This document shows, one piece after another, positions 28,143-64,000 of a stretch of 64,000 bases of DNA. The notes beneath the pieces are model-generated. The model was given only the letters and a program-made list of their open reading frames with translations, made no database searches and was not told the origin of the DNA. The DNA comes from Shinella sp. H4-D48. GTDB taxonomy: Bacteria; Pseudomonadota; Alphaproteobacteria; Rhizobiales; Rhizobiaceae. The stretch is taken from positions 62,001 to 126,000 of the forward strand of contig NZ_CP093337.1 of the NCBI RefSeq assembly GCF_022637395.1, given 5' to 3'. The position numbers and the translations under genes were made by a program. Position 1 is the first letter of the stretch. Each line of letters starts with the position of its first letter.

Positions 28143-28232
28143 GGAGAGGTGGCAGAGTGGTCGAATGCACCGCACTCGAAATGCGGCATACCTGCAAGGG
28201 TATCGTGGGTTCGAATCCCACCCTCTCCGCCA
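28143..28232 (+). tRNA. tRNA-Ser (anticodon CGA)
   Basis: A 90-base class II tRNA. The acceptor stem GGAGAGG (28143-28149) pairs with CCTCTCC (28222-28228). It has discriminator G and an encoded CCA (28230-28232). The anticodon stem CCGCA/TGCGG encloses the loop CTCGAAA with anticodon CGA at 28177-28179. A long variable arm (TACCTGCAAGGGTA) and the T-arm GTGGGTTCGAATCCCAC are present. It reads serine UCG. Island-type genes begin immediately downstream, and serine tRNA genes are frequent integration targets for tyrosine recombinases. Confidence 0.97.
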
Positions 28233-28346: not shown

Positions 28347-28730
28347 TCACTCTTCCGACTTCCCGGTAGATTTTCCTACAGCAATGCCGGCGACGATTAG
28401 GAACGCGCTGCCGAGAACCTTCAATATGTCGGCTAGCCACTCGCGTTCGGTGACGAGTGCGCCGACGATCACGATCAGCAGTATTAAGGCTAGTATGGCG
28501 AATGAAAGCGTCAAGGCGGCAGCATGACCTTTGTCATCGGTGCCATAAGCAAAGCCCCACTTCGAAAAGTGGAATACCTGGTTCGGTGCATGTCCGTCTG
28601 TGAAGCATGGATCTTTGCGAGTAGCGGTATCTGGCTGATCAGGAATCTGGGCCGGAGGCGATGGGATCTTCCATTGCCCCGGCGATTTCCCCTGGTCAGT
28701 TTGTGGCGTCGAGCTTTGATCGGAAGACAT
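28347..28730 (-). CDS. Small two-helix membrane protein, candidate toxin partner of a Panacea antitoxin
   Basis: A 127-residue protein of no recognised family. The first 75 residues are Pro/Gln/Asp-rich and soluble. Two hydrophobic segments follow (about residues 70-92, AAALTLSFAILALILLIVIVG, and 102-118), then a short polar tail ending GKSTGKSEE. Its start lies inside the 3' end of the Panacea-domain gene (overlap of about 35 bases), so the two are translationally linked. Membrane-active toxins are among the known partners of Panacea antitoxins, so a toxin role is a reasonable guess from position and topology, not from homology. Confidence 0.6.
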   Translation of the reverse strand: MSSDQSSTPQTDQGKSPGQWKIPSPPAQIPDQPDTATRKDPCFTDGHAPNQVFHFSKWGFAYGTDDKGHAAALTLSFAILALILLIVIVGALVTEREWLADILKVLGSAFLIVAGIAVGKSTGKSEE

Positions 28731-29235
28731 CACGGATCAATGTATTAGGAATTCTAGGCTTAGAGTCCAGCGTCCCGTAGCTTTCCTTAACAATTGTCCA
28801 AGGTTCCCCTGGTGCGTGCGTTGCATTTGAAAGCTGCACGCCAGACATGCCTTTATGGGTTTCCCAGACGTTCTTCAGAAATGAGAGCACTTCAGGATCT
28901 GGGGGATCTGGAAGCTCAAATTTCATAAACGGACCATTTCCTGATCGCGTCAGAACGTTGGCTTTTTTCCCCTGGATGGGCTTTCTGCCGAACTCTTTGA
29001 AACTTCCGTATATGTCACCGACAACCGGACCCCAGGGCCAAGCTTCAATGTCGTCACCGAACAGGGGCTGCCCCGTGTGAGCAAGCCACCAAGCATGAGC
29101 GTAGAAGACAAGCTTCTGTAGCTTCATCTGATCGATCAGCGGAAATTGCGAACGATCGTTTGCCTGGATGTCGAGAAAAGCGTTAGCTACCGCTGCCGCA
29201 GTAGTCCGAGCACCTTCCGCTGTAGTGTCTACCAT
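28696..29235 (-). CDS. Panacea-domain (DUF4065, SocA/GepA-like) protein, probable antitoxin
   Basis: A 179-residue protein with the DUF4065/Panacea fold. The segments IDQMKLQKLVFYAHAWWLAHTGQPLF and DDIEAWPWGPVVGDIYGSFKEFGRKPI are the family hallmark (L-KLQKL-YYA ... I-AW-GPV). The C-terminal part, LSNATHAPGEPWTIV, is also typical. Panacea domains act as antitoxins that neutralise many unrelated toxins. The gene is monocistronic except for the overlapping membrane protein gene downstream. It lies 460 bases from the tRNA-Ser gene in a region unlike the core in base use, consistent with horizontal transfer. Confidence 0.85.
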   Translation of the reverse strand: MVDTTAEGARTTAAAVANAFLDIQANDRSQFPLIDQMKLQKLVFYAHAWWLAHTGQPLFGDDIEAWPWGPVVGDIYGSFKEFGRKPIQGKKANVLTRSGNGPFMKFELPDPPDPEVLSFLKNVWETHKGMSGVQLSNATHAPGEPWTIVKESYGTLDSKPRIPNTLIRDVFRSKLDATN

Positions 29236-29429
29236 GCGAGTGCCTCCCTTCTGCGAATCACAAAGACAGCGCCGGAGCCTCGGCCCCCGCGCTGATTTTC
29301 CAGTTGAATATAGGTTGATTCTTGTGTGTTTGCTAGAGCCTAGGGGTTGACTCGCTGAGAATCAGTTGTGGAGAACAGTTAAGCCCGGGATCGTATCACA
29401 ACAGTTAGAGCGGGCGGACTGACATGAAT

Positions 29430-30713
29430 TTAATCCAGACTAATGACCTTAGCTGGCGAGAAGGTCTCAAGCTTCTTTACGCCGGATACCATTTCCTTGC
29501 CGAAGACGGGCGAGCCGATCGAGCCCTTTAACCAGCACTCTCGTTTAGCCTTGATATATGTGAACGCGATGCAAAGAGCTTCGTCTACGCAGGCCAATCG
29601 ACAGGCGAGCGGCGTTTTCGCCGACTGATGAGGACGTCGTGAAAGATCACCGCCCGGCAGATCGACATTGTCAAACAGCGCGGTTTGAGGATCGTTTACG
29701 CTCATTGTGAAAGCTGATGGATCTTCCTCGGCTCCGCTCAGGAAGCGCCCTGAGAAAGCTACGCTGTTTCCATCGGCTCGGCCGGCACTCGATTTCAAAA
29801 AGCAGTTCGGCCCCTTCCTGAGCCTTGGATTCGTATTAAAGGTGAACGCCTTGCACTGACCGTTCATGACCAGGCAGCTACTAGCGCATGCCGCAGGATC
29901 GTTGACACGAATGGAGGAGATGTCGTCACCGAACAGATCGAGGCCGGTGTAGATGGCTATTCGGTTTGGTCGCTTGGTGAACTCTTCGATCGGGGAAAGT
30001 GCCGTATCTCGAGGCAGGCTGGCTTGGTGAGAGTCGGGTGTTGGCTGATCAGAGGTTGAAGATTGCTTGTCGGACGATTCACTTCCATCGATAGGCTTGG
30101 TTGTGGTTTGCGGCTCGTGACTGGATGCGGCCAATTCATCCGATCGCTGGCTCGCGTTTCGGTTCAACCCGTAACGTCGAATCTCGTCTTGACTAAATAC
30201 GTGCATGTCATCAGGCGGAGTCTTGAACATGACGTGCATCACGTCGATCGGCGTGCCGAAGCGGTTCAGCACTTCAATAATGTCGGAGATCGCCAGCTGT
30301 GCGCCGACGAGATCAGACGAGCCGGAGGAGATCTGGTGGACGCCCAGGTCGCCATCGGCCTTTCGTTCAGCACCAGCAAGAAAGACGAAGGCGCATGCCG
30401 AGAAGCATTTGCTGCCACTCGGGATATACGTGGCCAACTTACGTTGATGGATGTCGTCTGCGATGAGCAGACCGATTTGAACGTTACCGCCGGGACTGTT
30501 GAGAATAACTAGCTTTGCTTCCGGTGCCGCTTGAAGTGCGCGGCGAAAATTCAGGCCGGAATTGATGTCAATCTCACCATTTAGCGTGATGACGCCCGGC
30601 GTGGAATCGTCAACGCTGAAGGGGCCAAAAGCTTTCTCTCCGGCGGTTGCATCAAGAACAGAGGCGACCGACAGCAGAATGCTAGCGAGCGCAGCCCAAA
30701 AATGATTACGCAT
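29430..30713 (-). CDS. Secreted ClpP/crotonase-fold protein fused to two PAN/Apple-like domains
   Basis: A 427-residue protein with a signal peptide (about residues 1-25). A ClpP-like domain of the COG3904 type follows (about residues 35-190): SPGGNVQIGLLIADDIH is the glycine-rich strand, KCFSACAFVFLAG holds the candidate nucleophile serine, and LGVHQISSG holds a candidate histidine. After a low-complexity Ser/Asp/Gln linker (about residues 195-245) come two cysteine-containing segments that look like PAN/Apple domains. One is at about residues 260-335 (NDPAACASSCLVMNGQCKAFTFN). The other is at about 350-420 (LACRLACVDEALCIAFTY, then ECWLKG). PAN domains usually bind carbohydrate or protein. 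The enzymatic role is unproven, and I know of no named system with this architecture. Confidence 0.72.
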   Translation of the reverse strand: MRNHFWAALASILLSVASVLDATAGEKAFGPFSVDDSTPGVITLNGEIDINSGLNFRRALQAAPEAKLVILNSPGGNVQIGLLIADDIHQRKLATYIPSGSKCFSACAFVFLAGAERKADGDLGVHQISSGSSDLVGAQLAISDIIEVLNRFGTPIDVMHVMFKTPPDDMHVFSQDEIRRYGLNRNASQRSDELAASSHEPQTTTKPIDGSESSDKQSSTSDQPTPDSHQASLPRDTALSPIEEFTKRPNRIAIYTGLDLFGDDISSIRVNDPAACASSCLVMNGQCKAFTFNTNPRLRKGPNCFLKSSAGRADGNSVAFSGRFLSGAEEDPSAFTMSVNDPQTALFDNVDLPGGDLSRRPHQSAKTPLACRLACVDEALCIAFTYIKAKRECWLKGSIGSPVFGKEMVSGVKKLETFSPAKVISLD

Positions 30714-30895: not shown

Positions 30896-31915
30896 ATGGC
30901 AACTATCAGAAAGCTCAGAGGGCGCTGGCAAGCTCAGGTGCGTCGTCGCGGGATGAAGCCACGCGCGAAGAGCTTCGACAGCAAAGCAGACGCCGAGAAG
31001 TGGGCGCGAGATCTGGAAACGCAGGTCGACCGCTTCGGGGCAGCCCCGGACACAAAGATCCTCGAGACCACGACGCTCGGTGCGCTCCTAGAGCGATATC
31101 AGCGGGAGATCACGCCTACCAAGCGCGGAGCGGTGCAGGAAGGACAGCGTATCGATGTTCTTCGGCGTCATGATCTCTCGCACCGAACGCTGATCGGGTT
31201 GAGCCAGCAGGACGTTGCGTCGTTCCGCGATGAGCGCCTGCAGTCGGTAGCTCCATCTACCGCTGTGAGAGAGATGGCGATCCTCAGTCATGCTGTTGAG
31301 GTTGCGATGCGTGATTGGGGAATGCCGCTCGCGAAGAACGTGGTGAAGCTCGTGCGCCGTCCGGTCATTCGAAATGAGCGCAGCCGACGCCTGACGGGCG
31401 ATGAGGAGCAGCGCCTTCTCGATGGCTGTAACGCCGGGTTGGTTCCCCATCTCAAAACGCTGATCATTCTGGCGATCGAGACCGGGATGCGCCGAGGGGA
31501 GATCCTGGGTCTTGAGTGGAAGGACTTCTCTCACAATCGCCGGGTGATCACCCTGATGATGACGAAGAACGGATCCGGGAGAGAGGTCCCTCTGTCTCAG
31601 CGTGCCTTTGACGCACTGACAGAATGGAGAGATCGAGCAGAAGTAGATCAATCTCTCATCTTCCCAATGAAGCCAGGCGCGCTCGAACAAGCTTGGCGTC
31701 GTCTGCTTGTCCGCTCGAACGTCAAGGCTTTGCGCTTCCACGACCTTCGTCACGAGGGTGTAAGCCGAATGTTCGAGCGCGGCTTGAATGTTATCGAAGT
31801 AAGCAGCATCTCAGGTCACAAGGAACTACGGATGCTCAAGCGCTATACGCATCTCGCCGTGGCCTGCTGGCCTGCTGCCGGTTTCTTGGACACCGAGTTA
31901 AGGTGTTTCCAATGA
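30896..31915 (+). CDS. Tyrosine-type site-specific integrase, C-terminus replaced by IS sequence
   Basis: A 339-residue phage-type integrase. It has an N-terminal AP2-like/arm-binding region (MATIRKLRGRWQAQVRRRGMKPRAKSF), a core-binding SAM-like domain (about residues 60-150), and a catalytic domain with the first arginine in ETGMRRGEILGLEW, H-xx-R in FHDLRHEGVSRMFERG, and the histidine and nucleophile tyrosine in SGHKELRMLKRYTHL. Right after the tyrosine motif the frame runs into the left end of the IS3 element at 31868 and adds 16 foreign residues. All catalytic residues remain, so activity is possible. It probably drove integration next to tRNA-Ser, but I cannot find a second copy of the tRNA 3' end. 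Confidence 0.87.
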   Translation: MATIRKLRGRWQAQVRRRGMKPRAKSFDSKADAEKWARDLETQVDRFGAAPDTKILETTTLGALLERYQREITPTKRGAVQEGQRIDVLRRHDLSHRTLIGLSQQDVASFRDERLQSVAPSTAVREMAILSHAVEVAMRDWGMPLAKNVVKLVRRPVIRNERSRRLTGDEEQRLLDGCNAGLVPHLKTLIILAIETGMRRGEILGLEWKDFSHNRRVITLMMTKNGSGREVPLSQRAFDALTEWRDRAEVDQSLIFPMKPGALEQAWRRLLVRSNVKALRFHDLRHEGVSRMFERGLNVIEVSSISGHKELRMLKRYTHLAVACWPAAGFLDTELRCFQ

Positions 31916-31930
31916 AACTGGAGCGCATGG

Positions 31931-32221
31931 ATGCAACGAAGGAAGTTCAGCCGCGAGTACAAGCTTGAGGCGGTGAGATTGGTTCGAGAGCGTGGGGTCG
32001 GCGTTGCGCAGGCATCTCGCGATCTGGATGTTCATGAGAATGTCCTGCGCAAGTGGGTCAGGGAATATGGTTCGGACCCCGCACAGGCTTTTCCTGGTCA
32101 GGGACAGATGAAGCCTGAGCAGCTTGAGATCGAGAGGCTTCGGAAAGAGGTGGCCAAGCTGAAGGCGGAGCGTGATATCTTAAAAAAGGCCGCCGCCTAC
32201 TTTGCGAAGGACGTGATATGA
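31931..32221 (+). CDS. IS3-family transposase OrfA (left copy)
   Basis: A 96-residue helix-turn-helix protein, MQRRKFSREYKLEAVRLVRE to AAAYFAKDVI. It has the usual IS3 OrfA layout: an N-terminal HTH (residues 5-50) and a C-terminal leucine zipper (LEIERLRKEVAKLKAERDIL). A TTAAAAAAGG heptamer-like slippery run near the 3' end (around 32180) is where programmed frameshifting to OrfB happens in IS3 elements. orfA and orfB also overlap by ATGA. Confidence 0.92.
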   Translation: MQRRKFSREYKLEAVRLVRERGVGVAQASRDLDVHENVLRKWVREYGSDPAQAFPGQGQMKPEQLEIERLRKEVAKLKAERDILKKAAAYFAKDVI

Positions 32222-33078
32222 AGTTCGCGTTCATTGCAAAGCACCGTTCGATCTGGCCGGTGGCATGGCTCTGCGAAGCGCTGGGTGTATCGCGTTCCGG
32301 CTTTCACGCCTGGTTAAACCGGTCTCCGAGCCAGCATGCCCGGTATGATGAGGCTCTGCTCGACAAGATCAAGGACAGCTTCAAGGATAGCGACCGCACC
32401 TACGGCGCGCGGCGTGTCTGGCACGACCTCCTTGCCGAAGGTCTCTCCTGTGGTCTGCATCGTGTCGAGCGTCTCATGCGCGCCAATGCATTGAGAGCAA
32501 GACCGAGACGGCGAGGCTTGCCGAGAGACGACGGCGAGCGCCCGGTCATCATGCCGAATGTGCTAGACCGATAGTTCGCGGCAGCAAGACCGAACCAGAA
32601 GTGGGTGGCCGATTTTGCATATCTTTGGACGGCTGAGGGCTGGCTCTATGTGGCTGCCGTCATCGACCTGTTCTCGCGCCGTGTCGTTGGCTGGTCGATG
32701 AATGCCAACATGACGGCCCAGCTCGTCACAGATGCGCTGATCATGGCCATCTGGCGCAGAGGCAAGCCGGATGCGCTTCTCCACCATTCGGACCAGGGCA
32801 GCCAATACACGAGCGAGCAGTTCCAGCGTCTCATGGCTGATCATGGAATCACCTGCTCGATGAGCCGATCCGGCAATGTCTGGGACAATGCCGCGATGGA
32901 AAGCTTCTTCTCATCACTCAAAACGGAAAGGACAGCTCGCAACGTCTACAGGACCAGGGACGATGCAAAGGCGGACGTGTTCGACTACATCGAGCGCTTC
33001 TACAACCCAAAGCGTCGCCATTCGACACTGGGCTATCTCAGCCCTATGGAATTTGAAAACAAGGTAGGATTAGCCTAA
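32218..33078 (+). pseudogene. IS3-family transposase OrfB interrupted by an amber codon (left copy)
   Basis: A single frame of 286 codons broken by TAG at codon 119 (32572-32574). The first part (MKFAFIAKHRSIWPVAWLCE to MPNVLDR) is the HTH_21-like N-terminal region. The second part is the rve integrase core with DDE residues in WVADFAYLWT, HHSDQGSQYTS and NAAMESFFSSLKTE. The amber codon stands where related transposases continue DRQFAAARPNQKW, so a CAG to TAG change is likely. The same change is in the right copy. The element could move only by suppression or with help in trans. Confidence 0.85.
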
Positions 33079-33108
33079 CTCGGTGTCCGAAAAACCGGCA
33101 GCAGGCCA

Positions 33109-33546
33109 GGTCTTCATAGCCCAATTCCTTCTCAAGCAAGGTTGCGGGTCAGGCCCTCGTTTGGTGTTCCACCACCAGCGAGGGCCGCTTAAGTGCCAGG
33201 GATCGTTTGACTATCCGGCACGTCCAGACTTAGCCCGGAGATCGCTCGCCGACAAGGAGAATAGAACGCATCCGGAACGAAGAGCTCAGGTATGGTTAAT
33301 TTTTCTGTTCTTGATCGACGCCAGAGCAACAGCCGGAAAATTCTAGTTCCCGGCGGTCCAAGGTTTGGTCCCATAGCGAGCAAACCCAAGACTCTCCTGA
33401 AATTCGAAGGGAAGTTGGGTCTCAGGTCAGAAAAGCCGTATACTGATCTGGAGGCTACTCAGAACGCACCTGGTTGGTAGGTCAACGAATCTGCCTTAAA
33501 AAGAGCTACAAGGATCGCATCGCAGAGACTGAATGGTGCAGAACAC
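33109..33546. other. Non-coding or degraded interval between the IS and pseG
   Basis: A 438-base stretch with only short, non-overlapping frames in both directions and no family resemblance that I can see. It should contain the promoter of the pseG fusion, but no clear -35/-10 pair stands out. It may be debris from the IS-mediated rearrangement. Confidence 0.4.
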
Positions 33547-62389: not shown

Positions 62390-62513
62390 TCAGACCGCTG
62401 GATCAATTGGCTTCAAGCGTTCCAGAACTTCGGATGCCACAGTCTGCCATGTTCTGAGCGTAGGTTTTGCATCCATGATGCGGCATTTGATACGCTGACG
62501 GAAGTCCGCATCC
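62390..62513 (-). pseudogene. C-terminal fragment of a gene cut by the right IS copy, possibly a glycosyltransferase
   Basis: On the minus strand a 41-codon frame (DADFRQRIKCRIMDAKPTLR then TWQTVASEVLERLKPIDPAV and stop) begins at the IS boundary. Its composition and the D-x-x-FR ... TW-xVA-EVLERL pattern resemble the last helix of GT4 glycosyltransferases. The rest of the gene would lie beyond the IS and is not found there. The assignment is tentative. Confidence 0.4.
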
Positions 62514-62576
62514 TGGCCTGCTGCCGGTTTCTTGGACACCGAGTTAAGGTGTTTCCAATGAAACTGGAGCGCATGG

Positions 62577-62867
62577 ATGCAACGAAGGAAGTTCAGCCGC
62601 GAGTACAAGCTTGAGGCGGTGAGATTGGTTCGAGAGCGTGGGGTCGGCGTTGCGCAGGCATCTCGCGATCTGGATGTTCATGAGAATGTCCTGCGCAAGT
62701 GGGTCAGGGAATATGGTTCGGACCCCGCACAGGCTTTTCCTGGTCAGGGACAGATGAAGCCTGAGCAGCTTGAGATCGAGAGGCTTCGGAAAGAGGTGGC
62801 CAAGCTGAAGGCGGAGCGTGATATCTTAAAAAAGGCCGCCGCCTACTTTGCGAAGGACGTGATATGA
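62577..62867 (+). CDS. IS3-family transposase OrfA (right copy)
   Basis: The same 96-residue product as the left-copy OrfA, with HTH and leucine zipper, and the same slippery A-run before the orfB overlap. Confidence 0.92.
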   Translation: MQRRKFSREYKLEAVRLVRERGVGVAQASRDLDVHENVLRKWVREYGSDPAQAFPGQGQMKPEQLEIERLRKEVAKLKAERDILKKAAAYFAKDVI

Positions 62868-63724
62868 AGTTCGCGTTCATTGCAAAGCACCGTTCGATCT
62901 GGCCGGTGGCATGGCTCTGCGAAGCGCTGGGTGTATCGCGTTCCGGCTTTCACGCCTGGTTAAACCGGTCTCCGAGCCAGCATGCCCGGTATGATGAGGC
63001 TCTGCTCGACAAGATCAAGGACAGCTTCAAGGATAGCGACCGCACCTACGGCGCGCGGCGTGTCTGGCACGACCTCCTTGCCGAAGGTCTCTCCTGTGGT
63101 CTGCATCGTGTCGAGCGTCTCATGCGCGCCAATGCATTGAGAGCAAGACCGAGACGGCGAGGCTTGCCGAGAGACGACGGCGAGCGCCCGGTCATCATGC
63201 CGAATGTGCTAGACCGATAGTTCGCGGCAGCAAGACCGAACCAGAAGTGGGTGGCCGATTTTGCATATCTTTGGACGGCTGAGGGCTGGCTCTATGTGGC
63301 TGCCGTCATCGACCTGTTCTCGCGCCGTGTCGTTGGCTGGTCGATGAATGCCAACATGACGGCCCAGCTCGTCACAGATGCGCTGATCATGGCCATCTGG
63401 CGCAGAGGCAAGCCGGATGCGCTTCTCCACCATTCGGACCAGGGCAGCCAATACACGAGCGAGCAGTTCCAGCGTCTCATGGCTGATCATGGAATCACCT
63501 GCTCGATGAGCCGATCCGGCAATGTCTGGGACAATGCCGCGATGGAAAGCTTCTTCTCATCACTCAAAACGGAAAGGACAGCTCGCAACGTCTACAGGAC
63601 CAGGGACGATGCAAAGGCGGACGTGTTCGACTACATCGAGCGCTTCTACAACCCAAAGCGTCGCCATTCGACACTGGGCTATCTCAGCCCTATGGAATTT
63701 GAAAACAAGGTAGGATTAGCCTAA
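62864..63724 (+). pseudogene. IS3-family transposase OrfB interrupted by the same amber codon (right copy)
   Basis: A single 286-codon frame with TAG at codon 119 (63218-63220), exactly as in the left copy, and an intact DDE core beyond it. Sharing the same nonsense change shows that one copy was derived from the other after the mutation, or that the stop is tolerated by readthrough. Confidence 0.86.
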
Positions 63725-63754
63725 CTCGGTGTCCGAAAAACCGGCAGCAGGCCA

Positions 63755-64000
63755 GGTCTTCGTTATTTTCCTGGCTTGGTTTGGTGTGCCGTTCGCCCGC
63801 TAGGCCCCTGCAATTGTCGATGATACTTGCACGCGGTTACTACGCTCGGCCTCAAATTTCCAGGTGACGCAAACCTGTTCAAAATGCGACCGGATTTATG
63901 GTAGGTGCATCTCAGCCAAGTGTTGACATTTATTTTGAAATACTGCAGTCGAATGCAGGTCACAACATTGGTACACACGGCACAAAATCGACGGATCGAA
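63755..64000. other. Right flank of the IS, no gene recognised
   Basis: The last 246 bases contain only a short minus-strand frame (63763-63978) without family resemblance. The missing 3' end of the integrase gene is not found here. Confidence 0.35.

Follow-up and report, generated by a model that had tools for sequence, protein, structure and literature searches.

A Panacea gene overlapping a gene for a small membrane protein at the tRNA end of a Shinella island: a probable PanAT toxin–antitoxin pair

What might a Panacea gene and an overlapping gene for a small membrane protein be doing, side by side, at the tRNA end of a genomic island? The locus that raises this question lies in a 64,000-nucleotide stretch of the genome of Shinella sp. 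H4-D48 (the window, hereafter), and we think that the answer is probably a PanAT type II toxin–antitoxin module, in which PanA would bind the soluble part of a membrane-depolarising toxin. The biological role of such a pair, be it island maintenance or a layer of abortive infection beside restriction genes, is the least certain part of this account. The features concerned are collected in Table 1.

Table 1. Features of the pair and its surroundings, in window coordinates
Feature	Coordinates	Strand	Basis
panA, single-domain Panacea (DUF4065) antitoxin	28696..29235	-	PF13274; 179 aa
panT-like toxin candidate	28347..28733	-	Pro/Gln-rich N-terminus, conserved pre-membrane block, two-helix hairpin
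panA leader, conserved	29236..29360	-	four-way alignment, repeat search
accessory PAN-domain gene, outside the pair	29430..30713	-	PAN_4 1.9e-19
tRNA-Ser (CGA), 3' end = integration target	28143..28232	+	ARAGORN, Rfam RF00005
attL = tRNA 3' end, 18-mer	28215..28232	+	recurs as attR
attR, second 18-mer copy	64041-64058 (C1:126041-126058), 41 bp past window end		repeat search
tyrosine integrase of the island	30896..31915	+	PF00589 8.1e-31

The two proteins and their precedents

The initial annotation described a Panacea gene whose 3' end overlaps a gene for a 127-residue protein with a Pro/Gln-rich N-terminal part and two membrane helices, and this description holds. Both reading frames are present where it had put them, and PanA is a member of the Panacea/DUF4065 family by its match to PF13274 (E 1.5e-18, 68.2 bits, cut-off 25.7). 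The small protein has 128 residues from a GTG at 28733 or 127 from an ATG at 28730, for an overlap of 38 or 35 nt, respectively, with 15 Pro/Gln among residues 1-50 and hydrophobic stretches at about 76-94 and 101-119.

PanA also matches PHROG 1281 (E 3.8e-34), and its AlphaFold2 model, from a 10-row alignment, reaches a pLDDT of 90.5 and a pTM of 0.87. In this model a helix at residues 132-139 ends at the invariant H140, and W68 stands directly before the second strand (69-72); going by secondary structure rather than by alignment, these two residues are likely counterparts of H120 and Y56 in the NetFlax description, which reports that Y56A and H120E abolish neutralisation (PMC10440598). Candidates from two structural searches with PanA were rejected, namely the sole match among solved structures, an unrelated designed protein (E 0.15), and the best Foldseek match, a DarTG chain (E 0.055; none at 0.001).

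Could the Panacea protein instead deliver its partner to a protease, in the manner of the type VI system SocAB? SocA, from another alphaproteobacterium, is likewise a Panacea antitoxin, and PanA does match the NCBIfam SocA_antitoxin equivalog (E 3.9e-29), but the score of 101.6 bits lies well under the curated cut-off of 190 and does not make PanA a SocA. The partner, moreover, is a membrane hairpin with an architecture unlike that of SocB, a soluble protein, and we regard delivery of this kind as highly improbable.

Upstream of panA, the leader carries GGGAGG, which resembles a Shine-Dalgarno sequence, and an imperfect inverted repeat of 18 nt (29262-29279 and 29282-29299), along with repeated GATTC/AATCA words, and the inverted repeat or the words may represent an operator or a hairpin in the leader. 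The RNA fold of the leader is weakly better than that of shuffled sequences (z -1.78; 11 of 200 shuffles as good), and its conservation across four Rhizobiaceae elements exceeds expectation for intergenic DNA. A search for sigma-70-like promoters at the pair found 0, where shuffles gave a mean of 0.9, and this we count against the PanAT reading.

For PanT, AlphaFold2 places two helices at 68-93 and 98-120, with poor overall confidence (mean pLDDT 58.7, pTM 0.32). Among 10 sequences 34 positions are invariant, many of them in a soluble block before helix 1 (PD..T....F..GAP.QVF.F..WG..YGTDDKGHAA) and others within the hairpin. The earlier impression that this partner falls in no recognised toxin family is borne out: it lies below every curated cut-off in Pfam and NCBIfam, its best PHROG match has E 0.028, solved structures give no match up to E 10, and neither PanT nor PanA is a known defence protein in PADLOC-DB, where 0 families match either of them at E up to 1. 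A few sub-cut-off Pfam matches (LysE 0.003, CcmD 0.019, SPW 0.032) were rejected as membrane-helix similarity. PanT is best read, on its sequence, as a rare toxin family that has no match in the curated libraries.

Two further claims of the initial annotation, that the pair is of a new type and that an antitoxin-first order is unusual, are contradicted by what Kurata 2022 reports on both points (PMC8832971): three validated PanT toxins are membrane proteins and cause depolarisation in E. coli, and the antitoxin comes first in 943 cases and the toxin in 325. Membrane PanTs (E. coli T3; Bartonella apis/choladocola T12, which is NetFlax D11; and the Helicobacter sp. toxin) share with our pair a Panacea antitoxin in a two-gene, antitoxin-first operon and a small partner whose soluble N-terminus is followed by C-terminal membrane helices, as a likeness of architecture and gene arrangement, not of compared sequence. 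It might be argued that the small protein, having no known toxin domain and a conserved soluble block larger than a pore needs, is a membrane anchor or an element-specific factor that acts with PanA, for example in excluding a second element, but its agreement in architecture and arrangement with the validated membrane PanTs makes this unlikely. The Kurata 2022 and NetFlax datasets comprise 88 clusters (PMC8832971, PMC10440598). Belonging to such a pair is nonetheless no proof of toxicity, since among the 25 pairs that Kurata 2022 describes as tested, 8 toxins had no toxic effect in E. coli and for 5 others toxicity was seen without rescue (PMC8832971).

With the characterised relatives as our guide to toxicity, depolarisation and direct neutralisation, we infer that free PanT would insert in the inner membrane and depolarise it, and that PanA would keep it inactive by binding the soluble N-terminal part, most likely at the conserved pre-helix block. 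The overlap of the genes would couple their translation, and a loss of PanA, whether through loss of the island, proteolysis or a phage trigger, would free PanT.

A conserved but rare pairing

A search for conserved co-occurrence of the two genes had been proposed as a check, and here the result is clear. GTDB species genomes scanned with PanT alone gave nine loci (43-86% identity), in Shinella, Agrobacterium tumefaciens, Phyllobacterium, genera of the Rhodobacteraceae and a gammaproteobacterial MAG, and IMG/VR gave one; a Panacea gene lies immediately upstream in 9/9 and 1/1 of these, that is, in all ten loci found through PanT. The locus L063, found through PanA, has a divergent PanT copy (profile probability 99.5%), again with PanA directly upstream. 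Counted from the first start codon (that of PanT in L057 is doubtful), the genes overlap by 20-41 nt in nine of the ten PanT-found loci and in the window, while a 5-nt gap separates them in L063. Distinct loci number 12 with the window included (L002/L022, L023 and L024 repeat L051, L052 and L053, and L062 is the contig of L061).

Among the four Rhizobiaceae copies, panT has a dN of 0.05-0.14, with a dS of 3.8 in one comparison and saturation in the other five. Low dN against saturated dS, together with relatives in other genera and families, argues that panT is not a chance reading frame and points to a small protein that is under selection. Between the window and L051, dS is 0.53 for panA and about 3.8 for panT, which may point to a tract of recombination, or to exchange, inside the pair.

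The neighbouring PAN-domain gene has counterparts in L051 and L052 and none in L053-L059, L061 or L063, so the pair is not part of a longer conserved operon. The relatives of this gene in L051 (85%) and L052 (68%) stand at the matching position, and its 427-residue product has two PAN-domain stretches and, near the N-terminus, a ClpP-like stretch below cut-off (CLP_protease 0.012). On the IMG/VR contig (L061), the upstream genes resemble, by eye, those for a type I restriction subunit, a metallopeptidase and DNA polymerase IV.

The PanT family is rare: true matches occur in 2 of 61 relatives (of the 45 matches with E up to 1 the others are weak, the best at 0.005), close Panacea relatives (>300 bits) in 4 of the 297 genomes of the family, and the profile finds its own genome alone in the class and phylum samples (1/385 and 1/398); tblastn at E 0.01 gives no match in the plasmid and phage collections. 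In the Rhodobacteraceae-like family of the Paracoccus genome, too, the one genome of 394 with PanT is the centre genome itself.

How, then, does this family relate to the partners of other Panacea genes? At 20 of the 30 listed Rhizobiaceae Panacea loci the gene directly downstream encodes a small protein for which one or more membrane helices are predicted (a tally that includes L050, whose helices are marginal), 4 have a larger soluble protein and 6 have no partner by the criteria used; a membrane partner behind Panacea is therefore the commonest arrangement there. Compared with seven other membrane-partner groups, the PanT profile gives probabilities of 0.1-30%, at which homology is not demonstrable. 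The best of these groups, L027, falls from 29.7% to 6.8% with a wider profile, and L027 and L033 exceed their reversed controls yet stay at or below 11% with the wider profile, while groups C and D score below their own reversed controls. The Bartonella choladocola pair has no identifiable match in the two Rhizobiaceae genera searched. An E. coli pair reached through L066 (55 of 5426 genomes; annotated in L071) was rejected as a yardstick, its accessions differing from those of the tested E. coli pair.

Islands with PanAT at the tRNA end

The pair had also been placed at the tRNA end of an island, and the boundary is real: G+C drops from about 0.64 to 0.54 at tRNA-Ser, the attL 18-mer recurs 35,826 bp on (its first base differs, leaving 17 bp identical), and, going inwards, PanAT is the first pair of genes. 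Elsewhere in the genome the 18-mer has one further match (2 mismatches), at another tRNA, and the backward control has one match. The stretch starting 179 bp beyond attR has its counterpart in the closest relative, G019, about 1 kb beyond this tRNA (93% over 498 bp), and no right-flank match occurs in the other 22 relative loci tested; an empty site thus has the support of a single relative and is not a clean one.

Residues 1-321 of the island's integrase are 82-83% identical to the integrases of three sibling elements, and its last few codons are replaced by insertion sequence (similarity at the DNA level stops at 31854-31859; the IS begins at 31867). Two identical 1,249-bp IS3-like copies in the same orientation (31867-33115 and 62513-63761) flank a nonulosonate/O-antigen-type cluster with NeuB, aminotransferase, flippase, polymerase-like and sugar-transferase proteins (9 proteins by Pfam). 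Because the left IS copy replaces the last integrase codons, this sugar cluster may have arrived as a composite unit or by IS recombination.

Is this position peculiar to the window? The siblings suggest otherwise. In Shinella WSJ-2, A. tumefaciens UMA610 and Phyllobacterium ORS 1419 the tRNA end occurs twice on a single contig, at distances of 24.9, 13.8 and 11.9 kb, as identical repeats of 120, 117 and 94 bp, respectively, and in all three PanAT lies 111-122 bp from the tRNA. The WSJ-2 element sits at a different tRNA-Ser copy from the window's, and that genome has its counterpart of the window's left flank at another locus. The Paracoccus zeaxanthinifaciens element targets tRNA-Asn and has 36-bp repeats 11.1 kb apart, and its 473-aa integrase has an Arm-DNA-bind_3 domain that is absent from the other integrases; the plan is the same as in the Rhizobiaceae siblings despite the other tRNA and integrase.

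Of the 12 distinct loci, eight have a tRNA no more than 750 bp from the pair (the window, L051, L052, L053, L055, L056, L057 and L059); L054 (where the contig ends 410 bp on), L058, L061 and L063 do not. The comparison is with 3 of 26 other listed Panacea loci, whose flanks are about 1.5 kb or less (Fisher p 0.001; with the four tRNA-Ser(CGA) elements counted once, 5/9 and p 0.015). Repeats were sought in five tRNA-adjacent loci. The loci at tRNA-Ala, tRNA-Ser(TGA) and tRNA-Tyr show no second tRNA-end copy in the fetched locus, save a 14-bp match in L059.

Island maintenance or phage defence

The cargo of these elements bears on what the pair might be for. All four delimited sibling elements carry restriction genes, and one carries Zorya: in the 24.9-kb element of Shinella sp. 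WSJ-2 (L096 4344-11972) a complete Zorya type I set (ZorA-D) stands beside type I restriction genes, the scan of the latter covering HsdM and HsdS. One sibling element has a type II methyltransferase and nuclease, another a type II nuclease, Vsr and a methyltransferase, and yet another a type IIG enzyme in two ORFs with PDC-S02. In L098 (9672-13084) a type IIG RM protein is split over two overlapping ORFs that cover model positions 3-782 and 784-1135. The window's element has the surface-sugar cluster in place of restriction cargo.

Such company invites the idea that the pair is an antiphage abortive-infection module, in which PanA would sense a phage product and release PanT, and which would have little to do with the upkeep of the island. 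The defence genes of the four other elements fit this idea, as does the proposal, made by the NetFlax authors in their report, that Panacea acts as a sensor (PMC10440598), but PADLOC finds no match among 13 proteins of the window's island (10 cargo proteins and the three next to the tRNA), and defence cargo may simply be the usual load of such elements; we hold it to be a possible role, if not the probable one. A precedent for maintenance comes from Shewanella, where, as the report on CGI48 has it, HipAB genes stabilise a tRNA-integrated island (PMC8978831), which is likewise a case of toxin–antitoxin genes carried by an island inserted in a tRNA gene, with a different toxin family. In the open-licence literature we found no earlier paper on this PanT family or on Panacea at island ends.

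Coming back to the probable PanAT module, we are tempted to go further, more as speculation than as expectation. PanT, marked by its YGTDDKGHAA block, could be a separate membrane-toxin family carried as a module at the att end of unrelated defence islands that integrate at tRNA genes, kept convergently as PanAT by elements with different integrases and tRNA targets, and acting at excision or upon a phage hit on PanA by opening the cell membrane; this wider picture strikes us as rather doubtful at present.

What does the finding mean for the family? The Panacea network would gain a conserved membrane partner with a testable candidate binding block, and the field would gain a small number of tractable elements (11 to 36 kb, with their ends known) in which PanAT stays at the att end as the cargo varies, from Zorya and restriction genes to a surface-sugar cluster. 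With PanAT constant and the cargo varying, the choice between island maintenance and phage defence becomes directly testable by deletion.
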